A DNA stretch of 64,000 nt, taken from NCBI GenBank assembly GCA_017525025.1, contig JAFXUJ010000001.1:186001-250000 (forward strand), written 5' to 3'. The position numbers and the translations under genes were made by a program. The notes under the pieces are model-generated. The model saw only the letters and a list, made by a program, of their open reading frames with translations, was not told the DNA's origin and did not search any database. This document shows positions 32,952 to 36,895 of this stretch, one piece after another (position 1 is the stretch's first letter; every line of letters begins with the position of its first letter). The stretch comes from Elusimicrobiaceae bacterium. GTDB lineage: Bacteria; Elusimicrobiota; Elusimicrobia; Elusimicrobiales; Elusimicrobiaceae.

Positions 32952-34433
32952 ATGAAAAAAATTGCTTTATTAAGCTTGGCGCTTTTGTTTTCTTTTGCGC
33001 TCAACGCCAAAGATACGATTATTTATCACACCAGCGATACGCATGGTTTTTTCTACCCGCAGGACGGACGGGGAGGTTTTGCGGCCTTGGGGGCGGTAAT
33101 CAAAAACGGACCCAAAGATTATTTACTTTTAGACAGCGGAGATTTTGCTAACGGGACAGTGGAAACCAAAAATTCCAAGGGATTAAAAGCCGTTGAATTG
33201 ATGAACGCGCTTAAATACGATGCCTCCACCATCGGCAACCACGAATTTGATTTTTACGAAGACAATTTGCCTCCCATGTTGGAAAAAGCGCAGTTTGCTA
33301 TATTGGCGGCCAACTTTTTTGAAGCGGGCACGCTCAAACGTCCTGCACACGTTTTGCCGTATAAAATTTTTACCCGCAACGGCGTAAAGATTGCCGTTAT
33401 CGGTTTAGCCAACAACAATCCTACGCAAGGAACTAAGAAATATACGTATATAAAACCCCTTACCGCCTTGGAAAACGCTTTGGAAGAAGTGGAAGCACAA
33501 CATCCCGATGTAGTAACGGTGATTGTGCATGATTCATTAGCGGATGACAAACACGGCGGGGCCGGCACCTATGTTGGAGAAATCGGGCGCAAATTTTCCG
33601 GACGGGTAAATATCGTATTCGGCGGTCACGCACACAAAGTTTTCCAAAATGAAAAAATCAATGACGTTTTATTTGTAGAGAGCGGATATTACATTAAGAA
33701 CGTAAGTAAAGTAACTGTAACAACTGATGACAAAACCGGGAAGTTTGTTTCGGCCAAGTCAGAGTTGATCCCTCTTTATATTAACAAAACCGGCCAAGAC
33801 AAAGAGATTTTAAAATTAGGCGAAGCGTTGCGCGAGCCGGGCGTGGATGAAGTGCTGGGCTACACGGAAGAACCCATGCCCAAACGTGCTTCTAATCCGA
33901 AATTTTTAGATAATTCACTAGATAACTGGTTAGCCGATTTGGGCCGTGCGTATGCAAATGTAGATGTGTTTATTACAAACACCGGCGGCACCCGCGTAGA
34001 TATGCCCAAAGGTGCCGTAACCAAGCGGGACGTGATTGATATTCACCCTTTTGAAAATACCGTTACCAAAATGACGGTGAACGGCCGAATGCTCAAACGC
34101 ATTGTTAAAAGCGGGCTTTCCAAAGGGCGTACGCGGTTTGCCTATTCGGGCTTGGCAGTTAATTTTGTGTATAACAAAAAAGGCAAAGTAAAAGACTTGC
34201 ACATTTGGGTGCATAATAAGCCGTTGGAAAACCGCAAAAAATACACCATTGCTACCAATTCATTTATTGCGCAAGGGCGCAGCGAAGGATTTGCGTTTAA
34301 GGCCATTCCGGACGAACAAAAAACGCAAGTGGGTACCAAAAATATGCGCCAGCTGTTGGAAGACGGTTTGCGCCAAGGTACGGCCAAAGAGCCGGTAAAA
34401 CCCGGGCCGGAAGGCCGCGTGGCGGAGCGTTAA
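32952..34433 (+). CDS. Secreted 5'-nucleotidase family phosphatase
   Basis: A 493-residue exported member of the UshA/5'-nucleotidase family. The signal peptide covers about 1-19 and AAAGGAG precedes the ATG. All the metallophosphatase ligands are seen in order: HTSDTHG, DSGDFANG, TIGNHEFD, VIVHDS and FGGHAH. The C-terminal substrate domain (from about 290) includes NTGGTRVDMPKGAVT and a DIHPFENTVTKM segment. It should dephosphorylate nucleotides or nucleotide sugars in the periplasm. The next gene is a degenerate relative, 3 bp downstream. Confidence 0.93.
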   Translation: MKKIALLSLALLFSFALNAKDTIIYHTSDTHGFFYPQDGRGGFAALGAVIKNGPKDYLLLDSGDFANGTVETKNSKGLKAVELMNALKYDASTIGNHEFDFYEDNLPPMLEKAQFAILAANFFEAGTLKRPAHVLPYKIFTRNGVKIAVIGLANNNPTQGTKKYTYIKPLTALENALEEVEAQHPDVVTVIVHDSLADDKHGGAGTYVGEIGRKFSGRVNIVFGGHAHKVFQNEKINDVLFVESGYYIKNVSKVTVTTDDKTGKFVSAKSELIPLYINKTGQDKEILKLGEALREPGVDEVLGYTEEPMPKRASNPKFLDNSLDNWLADLGRAYANVDVFITNTGGTRVDMPKGAVTKRDVIDIHPFENTVTKMTVNGRMLKRIVKSGLSKGRTRFAYSGLAVNFVYNKKGKVKDLHIWVHNKPLENRKKYTIATNSFIAQGRSEGFAFKAIPDEQKTQVGTKNMRQLLEDGLRQGTAKEPVKPGPEGRVAER

Positions 34434-34436
34434 ATC

Positions 34437-35930
34437 ATGTGGCATAGCCGTATTGGGTGGATGGTAGCGGTTTTGTTCTTCTTGTGCGCTTGCTCGCACG
34501 AGAAAACCACTCAGTTGGATATTTTTTATACGGCTGATGCCGAGGGATTTTACCATAGCCGCCCGGAACCTCATTTTGCCAATCAGGATGCGGGCGGTTA
34601 TGGCGTTTTAAAAGCTTTTTTAGCCCGCCAAGAGGGTCCCTACTTGCTTTTGGATGGCGGAAACTGGCTTGGTTCAGGGCCGGAGGCCGCCATTACGCAA
34701 GGAGGATATATTACGCGCATGATGCGGGATATCCCGTATACGGCCGCTTCGGTAAGTGATAAAGACTTCGCCTTTGGATGGGGCGCGCTACGCAATACGT
34801 TGCGTGAAATGCCTTATCCGTTTATCGTATCCAATTTAAAATCAAATAATCAAATTCCGCGTCCGTTGCACGATTACCAAATTGTAACCCAAAAGGGTAT
34901 TAGAATAGGCATTATCGGCGTGATCGGCCCGGAAGTAATTCAAAATCACAAAAATCGTTTGGTAGGGTTTAGCTTGCAAGATCCGGTGGAGAGCGCAGTT
35001 GAAATGTCCGCCTTAATGCAAAGCAAGGGCGTAGATTTAATCATTCTGCTGAATTCATGGGCCGGGGAAGAAAAAGCGAGTCCGGCCGCGGTGCGTTTGG
35101 CGGAAGAAGCCGGGGAGATCAACCTCATTCTCAGCTCTAATAAAGGACGGGAAACGCCTGAAACGGATAAAATCAACAAGACTTACATTGTTTATCCCGG
35201 TTCCAAATTAGATAGCATTGCTCATATCCGGGTATGGTTTGATAAAAACAAACAAATCAAAGATATTTCTTTCACGGATGTCCCATTATTGAAAAATTCC
35301 TGGGGCGAAGATGAAACGATTGCGGCAGAATCGCAACGTTTACAACAAGAAACCCAACGCAAACTCAGCTCCCGTGTTTCCACCGCTCCGCAAGAGTTGG
35401 AAACCTCTTTGTCTGCGGAATCGGTCTTGGGTGATTTGCTGACCGATTGTTTGTATAAATGGTCCAAGTTGGATGGTGCCATTTTGAATGCGGATTCTAT
35501 CCGCAGTTCTCTGCCGGAAGGTGTTGTAACGGAATATGACTTGCATAAAATGTATCCGTACGGGGACAATATTACCTTTTTGACCATGCGCGGAAGTTCT
35601 TTTTTAAAGGCCTTGGAAGCGTCTATGGATGTTAAAGATAATTTTCCGCAAATTGCCGGATTTACGGTTTCGTATCGTTCGCAAGCTCCAACCGGTAAAA
35701 AGATCAGCCAAGTAGTGCTTAACAACGGGCGCATTATCCGCCCGCAAGAAACATACCGTTTTGCGGTAACGGATCACGTGTTGGCCGGTGGGTTTGGGCA
35801 TGATTATTTTATTGATTCCTTAGAATTTAAAAACACATTTGTAGATGCTCGCCAAATTATGAGGGCCTGTTTAGTGCGTCAAAAAACGATTGCGCTACCT
35901 AAAACCGGCCGCTGGAAACAAGTGCAATGA
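34437..35930 (+). CDS. 5'-nucleotidase-like lipoprotein lacking catalytic residues
   Basis: A 497-residue lipoprotein (lipobox LCAC, Cys about 19) with the full two-domain 5'-nucleotidase fold. The active site is lost: the DxH motif is TADAEG (His to Glu), GD is DGGNW, GNHEFD is SDKDF, the lone His region is LLNSWAG, and GGHxH is SSNKG. The C-terminal domain is better kept (NADSIRSSLPEGVVTE, YPYGDNITF). So it probably binds rather than cleaves, perhaps as a receptor or a partner of the intact paralogue just upstream. Its stop overlaps the dus start (ATGA). Confidence 0.88.
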   Translation: MWHSRIGWMVAVLFFLCACSHEKTTQLDIFYTADAEGFYHSRPEPHFANQDAGGYGVLKAFLARQEGPYLLLDGGNWLGSGPEAAITQGGYITRMMRDIPYTAASVSDKDFAFGWGALRNTLREMPYPFIVSNLKSNNQIPRPLHDYQIVTQKGIRIGIIGVIGPEVIQNHKNRLVGFSLQDPVESAVEMSALMQSKGVDLIILLNSWAGEEKASPAAVRLAEEAGEINLILSSNKGRETPETDKINKTYIVYPGSKLDSIAHIRVWFDKNKQIKDISFTDVPLLKNSWGEDETIAAESQRLQQETQRKLSSRVSTAPQELETSLSAESVLGDLLTDCLYKWSKLDGAILNADSIRSSLPEGVVTEYDLHKMYPYGDNITFLTMRGSSFLKALEASMDVKDNFPQIAGFTVSYRSQAPTGKKISQVVLNNGRIIRPQETYRFAVTDHVLAGGFGHDYFIDSLEFKNTFVDARQIMRACLVRQKTIALPKTGRWKQVQ

Positions 35931-36895
35931 CACACATCCGTCCGTTTTGTATAGGTAAACTCTCCCTAAAAAATAATTTAGTACTGGCCCCTATGGCCGG
36001 CATTACCGATTCGCCTTTCCGTATTCTATGCTTAAAGGGCGGTGCGGGGCTTGTCTGTGCGGAAATGGTGTCGGCGCACGCGTTGCATTACGGCAATGCC
36101 AAAAGCGGGCGCATGTTGCAGGTCAGCCCCAAAGAACACCCGGTCTCTATGCAGATTTTCGGCTCTGATGAAGAAACTATTTCCCAAGCTGCGCAAAATG
36201 CCGAAAAGGCCGGGGCCGATATCGTAGATTTAAATGCCGGGTGCCCGGTTAAAAAAATAAATAAAGCGGGTGCCGGGTGTGTGCTGATGAAAGACGAAAC
36301 TAAACTGGCACGTCTATTAACAGCGGCCATAAAGAGCGTTAAAATTCCGGTTACGCTTAAAACGCGCATAGCCTTAAATCACAAAGAATTTTTAGGGGCG
36401 CGCCTGGCTAAATTAGCCGAAGATTGCGGAGCAGCCGCGGTTACACTTCACGCCCGCGCGGCGGTGGATATGCACAGCGGCGAGCCGGATGTAGAAGCGT
36501 TAGCTAATGCGTGCCAAGCAGTAAAAATTCCGGTCATTGGTAACGGCGGCGTAACAAATGCTGCGCGCGTAAAAGAATTTCTAGAAGCGGGTTGCGCGGG
36601 GGTAATGATCGGCCGCGGCGCGGTAGGCAATCCGTTTATTTTTCAGGATATAATAGACGAATTGGCAGGCCGTCCGGTGCAGGCCCACACGGCACAAAAG
36701 CGGTTAGAAATTTATTTGAAACTCATTGAAGAAAACGTAGATTACTACGGCGAGCGTATCGGCATTAACCGCAGCCGCAAAATCGCCGGCTATTGGATAA
36801 GCGGTTTCCCCAATGCGGCCGCTGTACGCGGGGAATTTGTACGCTTAGATACGCTGCCGGACGTTCGTGCGCTTTTACGCCAAGTTATTTCCTAA
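35927..36895 (+). CDS. tRNA-dihydrouridine synthase
   Basis: A 322-residue FMN enzyme of the Dus family (DusB-like) that reduces uridines in the tRNA D-loop. LAPMAGITDSPFR (about 20), the MQIFGSDEE segment, the catalytic Cys in DLNAGCPVKKI (about 105) and IPVIGNGGV with GRGAVGNPFIF are present. It overlaps the pseudo-nucleotidase gene by 4 bp, an unexpected functional pairing. The specific uridine position cannot be called. Confidence 0.94.
   Translation: MTHIRPFCIGKLSLKNNLVLAPMAGITDSPFRILCLKGGAGLVCAEMVSAHALHYGNAKSGRMLQVSPKEHPVSMQIFGSDEETISQAAQNAEKAGADIVDLNAGCPVKKINKAGAGCVLMKDETKLARLLTAAIKSVKIPVTLKTRIALNHKEFLGARLAKLAEDCGAAAVTLHARAAVDMHSGEPDVEALANACQAVKIPVIGNGGVTNAARVKEFLEAGCAGVMIGRGAVGNPFIFQDIIDELAGRPVQAHTAQKRLEIYLKLIEENVDYYGERIGINRSRKIAGYWISGFPNAAAVRGEFVRLDTLPDVRALLRQVIS

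Follow-up and report, generated by a model that had tools for sequence, protein, structure and literature searches.

Introduction

Pseudoenzymes have been much studied in signalling, and few have been described among bacterial periplasmic nucleotidases; full-text literature searches found neither a dead nucleotidase lipoprotein nor a pseudoenzyme in the UshA-CD73 family. In UshA, F429 and F498 stack the base (PMC7922932), and in CD73 the nucleotide is held by R354, R395, D506, F417 and F500 (PMC7508162). The isolated C domain of E. coli CpdB is inactive and carries the substrate-binding site that sets specificity (PMC7922932). These systems are compared here with a tandem pair of homologues in a window of 64,000 nucleotides (the whole stretch of DNA that was analysed) from a 1.55 Mb genome; among named relatives, gut Elusimicrobium/Elusimicrobiaceae MAGs stand closest to it.

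The gene pair and its surroundings

The gene at 34437-35930 starts with ATG, contains no internal stop and lies 3 bp behind the TAA of a secreted paralogue (32952-34433; Table 1), which possesses the full dimetal set (D29, H31, D64, N96, H193, H226, H228) and the dyad H97/D100, i.e. DHDNHDHHH at the nine positions compared; both the spacing and the intactness of the neighbour had been given correctly in the first-pass annotation. The two proteins share 22% identity (E 2e-22). Every ligand of the active copy is invariant among 74 paired-type homologues of the genus, and a third homologue in the same genome (L003) is distant and ligand-complete. Co-translation of the dead copy with the following dus-like gene is likely because of their 4-bp overlap; the latter comes next after the partner at the majority of the family's loci and belongs to the conserved context, with no part in the mechanism. 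No Rfam match to RNA elements was obtained near the gene pair, a promoter/terminator scan performed no better than chance, and a phage collection gave weak matches only (<60% identity; at most 21.5% among the matches listed). Upstream of the pair, a third tandem paralogue was observed at L063:7832-9337, L061:4578-6083, L060:6616-8157 and about eight further loci of the genus; it keeps the metal ligands and has the catalytic-dyad Asp replaced by Ala (GNHEFA; 11 of 85 active-type genus sequences).

Table 1. Coordinates of the gene pair, its sequence motifs and associated genes (window positions unless a locus is named).
Feature	Coordinates	Strand	Remarks
Active paralogue	32952..34433	+	493 aa; signal peptide without lipobox Cys; Pfam Metallophos + 5_nucleotid_C
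Pseudoenzyme lipoprotein, 5'-nucleotidase fold, ligand-less	34437..35930	+	497 aa; conserved in all 36 congeners
Predicted lipoprotein signal peptide, lipobox L16-C-A-C19	34437..34493	+	C19 codon 34491-34493
Former DxH metal motif, now D34-A-E36	34536..34544	+	position 36 E/Q in 49/50 genus orthologues
Former GD(F) motif, now G75-N76-W77	34659..34667	+	G75, W77 invariant in partners
Former GNHEFD (metal Asn, catalytic His + Asp), now S107-D-K-D-F-A112	34755..34772	+	motif table
Former metal His of VHD motif, now S207 (LNS)	35055..35057	+	motif comparison
Former GHxH metal motif, now S234-N-K-G237	35136..35147	+	motif comparison
C338, partner-specific Cys	35448..35450	+	invariant in partners; missing from active copies
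Pocket segment N351-R356	35487..35504	+	R356 aligns with UshA R410; N351, R356 invariant in 50 genus orthologues
Pocket segment Y373-D377	35553..35567	+	Y375 aligns with UshA F429, D377 with N431
Pocket segment T445-H455	35769..35801	+	H447 aligns with UshA F498, F453 with D504
C478, partner-specific Cys	35868..35870	+	present in compared partners; missing from active copies
tRNA-dihydrouridine-synthase-like gene	35927..36895	+	named from sequence reading; ATG overlaps pseudoenzyme TGA by 4 bp
Sister-family AphA-like HAD phosphatase, membrane-anchored, FEYDDG (Glu for nucleophile Asp)	L057:5386-6009 (-), L052:4749-5465 (+), L070:3914-4555 (-), others		

Loss of the metal site in a complete fold

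Of the nine dimetal-ligand and catalytic-dyad positions, D34 alone agrees with the active paralogue, and the other eight have been replaced (DENDKASNG versus DHDNHDHHH). The motif substitutions proposed beforehand (DxH to DAE, GD to GN, GNHE to SDKD, GHxH to SNKG) read as claimed, and the statement that nearly every metal ligand is replaced stands, with the VHD histidine and the dyad aspartate changed to S207 and A112. The dimetal ligand set of a 5'-nucleotidase (D, H, D, N, H, H, H/Q) and its His/Asp dyad are therefore gone. It is a bacterial lipoprotein as judged by its signal peptide and lipobox cysteine (LCAC19), with processing being predicted: C19 is invariant in the 45-sequence partner alignment, and within the order the lipobox pattern occurs at 42 of 49 N-termini of partners versus 7 of 83 of active copies (start codons are approximate).

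The Pfam 5'-nucleotidase C domain is matched with 92 bits (cut-off 23.6) and the Metallophos domain is not matched in 34437-35930, whereas the neighbour has both domains. According to the AlphaFold model of the lipoprotein alone (45 aligned partners; mean pLDDT 90.5, pTM 0.85), the fold is complete, as had been assumed; the closest solved structures, matched along the entire chain (residues 22-497, Z 31-35), are 5'-nucleotidases such as 3ivd with uridine (Z 35.2), CD73 6vc9 (Z 34.3, rmsd 4.1) and UshA (Z about 32), and the two-domain fold of the UshA/CD73 family is thus present.

Distribution and clade history

The dead copy was found in 36 of 36 sampled congeners, split by contig ends in a few. 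The first-pass annotation had reckoned with a decaying gene if orthologues retained the ligands, and the outcome speaks for its pseudoenzyme: the metal set is restored in none of the 50 distinct orthologue sequences of the genus, and only the basal L123 of the family keeps part of it. Position 34 is D throughout these 50 sequences, position 36 E/Q/L and position 76 N/S; the other former ligand and dyad positions hold D/E/G/P, K/N/Q/P and small or hydrophobic residues, and the former VHD/GHxH positions S/A/G/T, N/D/G and D/G/N/S.

A ligand-less lipoprotein is also encoded directly downstream of the active nucleotidase in five further sampled genera of the family (g12-g16; the neighbour is hidden by contig ends in g14 and g15) and in the majority of the sister family (f2), in which 16 of 24 genomes have a clear partner. 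Very divergent partners are present in G038, G049, G053, G057 and G060 (the last three on weaker matches), and that of G042 is broken by stops (L077:5694-7203), which would be a pseudogene or an assembly error. No partner was found in G044 and G048, which are also without the paired active copy and the AphA-like gene discussed below; the flanks of their sole active copy match those of the solitary second copy in other genomes (L050), and the entire pair locus is accordingly absent from these two or was not assembled. Beyond the order, homologues of this type sampled from the same class and from other classes of the phylum occur singly and have all ligands; the other altered proteins comprise three PCG-type relatives and one long outlier, these four together forming a separate clade.

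Trees calculated after masking of the ligand columns unite the dead copies in one clade (SH-aLRT 99.7 with 77 rows, 95 with 132 rows) that splits into the two families. Grouping of this clade with the active copies of the order, as expected for a duplication inside the order, was rejected (AU p 0.0007); this points to an early split or to an effect of the long branches. Invariant in 45 partners are C19, G37, G54, G75, W77, D110, N133, C338, G386, G408, Y440, D446, E463 and F464. C338, D446 and C478 are new marks of all intact full-length partners read and are absent from active copies, and a disulfide between C338 and C478 is possible; W342 occurs in the compared partners except L127 and is absent from the compared active copies. 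An intermediate state is represented by the lipoprotein of G161 (L123:5374-6999, +), which is basal in its family in the tree: it reads DHDGMAHNH at the nine positions, lipobox, W342, C338 and C478 are already there, and the dus-like gene is separated from the pair. It would appear from these sequences that an ancient copy of a periplasmic 5'-nucleotidase lost its dimetal centre and remained in one operon with the active enzyme.

Selection and redistribution of constraint

The dN/dS values among close partner pairs were 0.06-0.16, and the medians for pairs with dS below 2 were nearly identical for the partner (0.15) and the active copy (0.14). Among the 50 genus orthologues, the nine former ligand and dyad positions had a mean entropy of 0.95 versus a background of 1.29 (permutation p 0.13; p 0.07 against the N domain alone); as far as the alignment tells, the former metal residues in the genus vary as fast as the background. 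The 20 positions of the C-domain pocket, a set picked by homology that includes structural motif residues, had an entropy of 0.35, a value that none of the 20000 draws reached (p 0.00005 against the C domain alone). By domain, entropy was 1.14 for C versus 1.36 for N in the dead copy, and 0.94 for N versus 1.16 for C in the active copy. The alignments thus show a shift of constraint in the genus from the N-domain metal site to the C domain. The pocket shows the same degree of conservation in the active copy (entropy 0.37), which indicates retention rather than a new use.

Catalytic residues lost across orthologues, a preserved fold and purifying selection together characterize a pseudoenzyme; indeed, the lipoprotein paired with an active paralogue that the annotation had recognized in a single genome extends throughout the order as one clade under purifying selection. 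Based on this retention under strong selection, the product of 34437-35930 is, to judge from sequence comparison, a working non-catalytic protein and an old pseudoenzyme rather than a decaying gene.

The C-domain pocket and a possible ligand

R356, Y375, D377, D446 and H447 are strongly conserved pocket residues in the genus, D446 being invariant in 45 of 45 partners. Relative to UshA, R410 is kept, and F429 is changed to Y, N431 to D, F498 to H and D504 to F/A. The base clamp and ribose-binding Asp of 5'-nucleotidases are in consequence not preserved: Y375 is still aromatic, but H447 stands for F498 and F453 for D504. The large genus g12 of the family has lost R356, and the sister family has lost most of the pocket; binding of a small ligand would therefore not be a function common to the entire clade, short of a change of ligand. 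The earlier suggestion that the lipoprotein captures or presents nucleotides is accordingly only partly upheld: capture is possible in the family, since the C-domain pocket stays conserved, whereas the ribose Asp and both base-clamp Phe are changed and the sister family is without the pocket.

The conserved pocket and the precedent of the CpdB C domain place ligand binding first, and the changes within the pocket limit the confidence in it. On this evidence, the best reading, held with slightly less than even confidence, is a non-catalytic lipoprotein, encoded in one operon with the active enzyme, that in this family binds a small ligand in its C-domain pocket. The ancient periplasmic 5'-nucleotidase copy would have lost its dimetal centre and become a membrane-anchored non-catalytic protein in the operon of the active enzyme; it would be catalytically dead as a phosphohydrolase, reside in a cell-envelope membrane and hold a nucleotide, nucleoside or related compound in the pocket of its C domain. 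It would serve the active soluble enzyme by concentrating or sensing the substrate or product of that enzyme; the reading does not presuppose that the two proteins touch each other.

A possible role as protein partner

A possible, somewhat more doubtful explanation is that the lipoprotein acts through protein contacts on the soluble nucleotidase or on some other envelope protein, as an anchor, stabiliser or allosteric regulator, and that its pocket is only structural. It agrees with the position of the partner directly downstream of the active copy almost wherever both share a contig, with the joint absence of paired active copy, partner and AphA-like gene from G044 and G048, where the solitary second active copy stays, and with whole-clade marks that are not pocket ligands (C338, W342, C478, W77, E463-F464). 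The adjacency may, however, be inherited from tandem duplication. As the two genes are in frame, they were folded as one read-through chain (TAA as Q), to which eight natural in-frame pairs were added. Each domain folds, but their relative placement is not confident, with a pTM of 0.46 versus 0.85 for the lipoprotein alone. The model thus lends no support to a stable heterodimer, and it is weak evidence against one given nine sequences (a shallow alignment) and a short linker. The proposal of a regulatory partner is hence compatible with genetic linkage and the loss of the pair locus in two genomes, whereas the fused chain did not place the proteins confidently together. Ligand binding and a protein-partner role may also both apply.

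The ancestral locus

In the rest of the class (f10, f14, f15), the gene after the active nucleotidase typically encodes an AphA-like HAD protein with a membrane anchor and the motifs DYDDT/DYDET and GDSDxD. In examples from f4 and f13 (L140, L141), the nucleotidase adjoins a Pit phosphate transporter and a PhoU-like protein; the PhoU_div and PHO4 (Pit) genes lie beside the single active nucleotidase at L140:4715-6317 (-) and L141:4866-6500 (-). The ancestral locus thus looks like one for phosphate or nucleotide salvage. The sister family has the order active nucleotidase, dead nucleotidase, AphA-like protein, the latter with EYDDG (or a close variant) where readable and the second acidic motif mostly lost, compared with FDYDDT in the relatives of most of the class. 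According to the known HAD mechanism, the exchange of the nucleophile Asp for Glu should render the sister-family protein inactive. An AphA-like gene was found in none of the sampled genomes of Elusimicrobiaceae. The two losses are not strictly tied, as one f10 genome outside the order (L148) has EYDDG without a dead nucleotidase. Small helical proteins are encoded upstream of the sister-family pair (L070:7791-8444 (-), L058:4609-5169, L057:9225-9824 (-)); two that were scanned are Pfam-negative, and by eye they are possibly remote PhoU_div relatives.

It is conceivable, if rather unlikely as a whole, that a nucleotidase lineage across the order gave rise to a lipoprotein that, as receptor or sensor of nucleotides, monitors their periplasmic levels on behalf of the adjacent enzyme and that, with the AphA-like phosphatase of the sister family also dead, a former phosphate-scavenging operon came to consist partly of binding proteins.

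Altered catalysis or decay as improbable alternatives

That D34, N76, D108, K109 and N235 form a new catalytic site with new chemistry is improbable: D34 is invariant, N76 and N235 are nearly so and position 108 is D/E in 47 of 50 genus orthologues, but position 109 varies (K/N/Q/P) as does position 36 (E/Q/L), the remaining polar set as a whole is not common to the sister family, where D34 is mostly R, and the former excess of conservation of the N domain is gone in the dead copy. A decaying duplicate under relaxed selection, of which the broken G042 partner and the very divergent sister-family copies might be reminiscent, is excluded in the genus by the low dN/dS of close pairs, and the intact frames and dozens of invariant positions there and the order-wide retention leave it scarcely any credence.

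Comparison with known systems

The single active enzyme outside the order, the basal L123 with partial ligands and the fully dead partners beside their active twins constitute a complete natural series and, therefore, a clean system for asking what role a dead nucleotidase has; annotation by homology could mislabel the gene as a nucleotidase, with the nucleotide-degrading capacity overstated in consequence.

With the UshA/CD73 family (COG0737; PF00149 + PF02872), the dead copy has in common the two-domain fold, the C-terminal domain and an operon neighbour that is a full member; in contrast to that family, it is without dimetal centre and dyad, is a predicted lipoprotein, has the clamp F/F changed to Y/H and its Metallophos domain is unrecognised. 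The UshA-like (seleno)proteins PCGU/PCGC (NF041198; COG0737 selenoprotein, PMC2398784) are UshA relatives with some ligands changed, like the dead copy. Assignment to this family was rejected, since the dead copy scores 70.7 bits (active copy 37.5 bits) at a cut-off of 275 and the PCG[UC] motif is absent. Elusimicrobiota members resembling PCGU/PCGC were seen at L139:2579-4135, L142:3465-4952 (PCGC) and L147:2548-3945; unlike the dead copy, they keep partial ligands (SND-DQ/EQ-x-HHQ) and belong to another clade. The C domain of E. coli CpdB, inactive alone and with a nucleotide-binding site, is a laboratory truncation, whereas natural CpdB keeps its catalytic N domain (PMC7922932). In the insect salivary binders, tsetse 5'Nuc and deerfly chrysoptin, which are likened here by description, a 5'-nucleotidase fold binds protein; in contrast to the reading proposed for the dead copy, tsetse 5'Nuc is still an active apyrase (PMC2843633).
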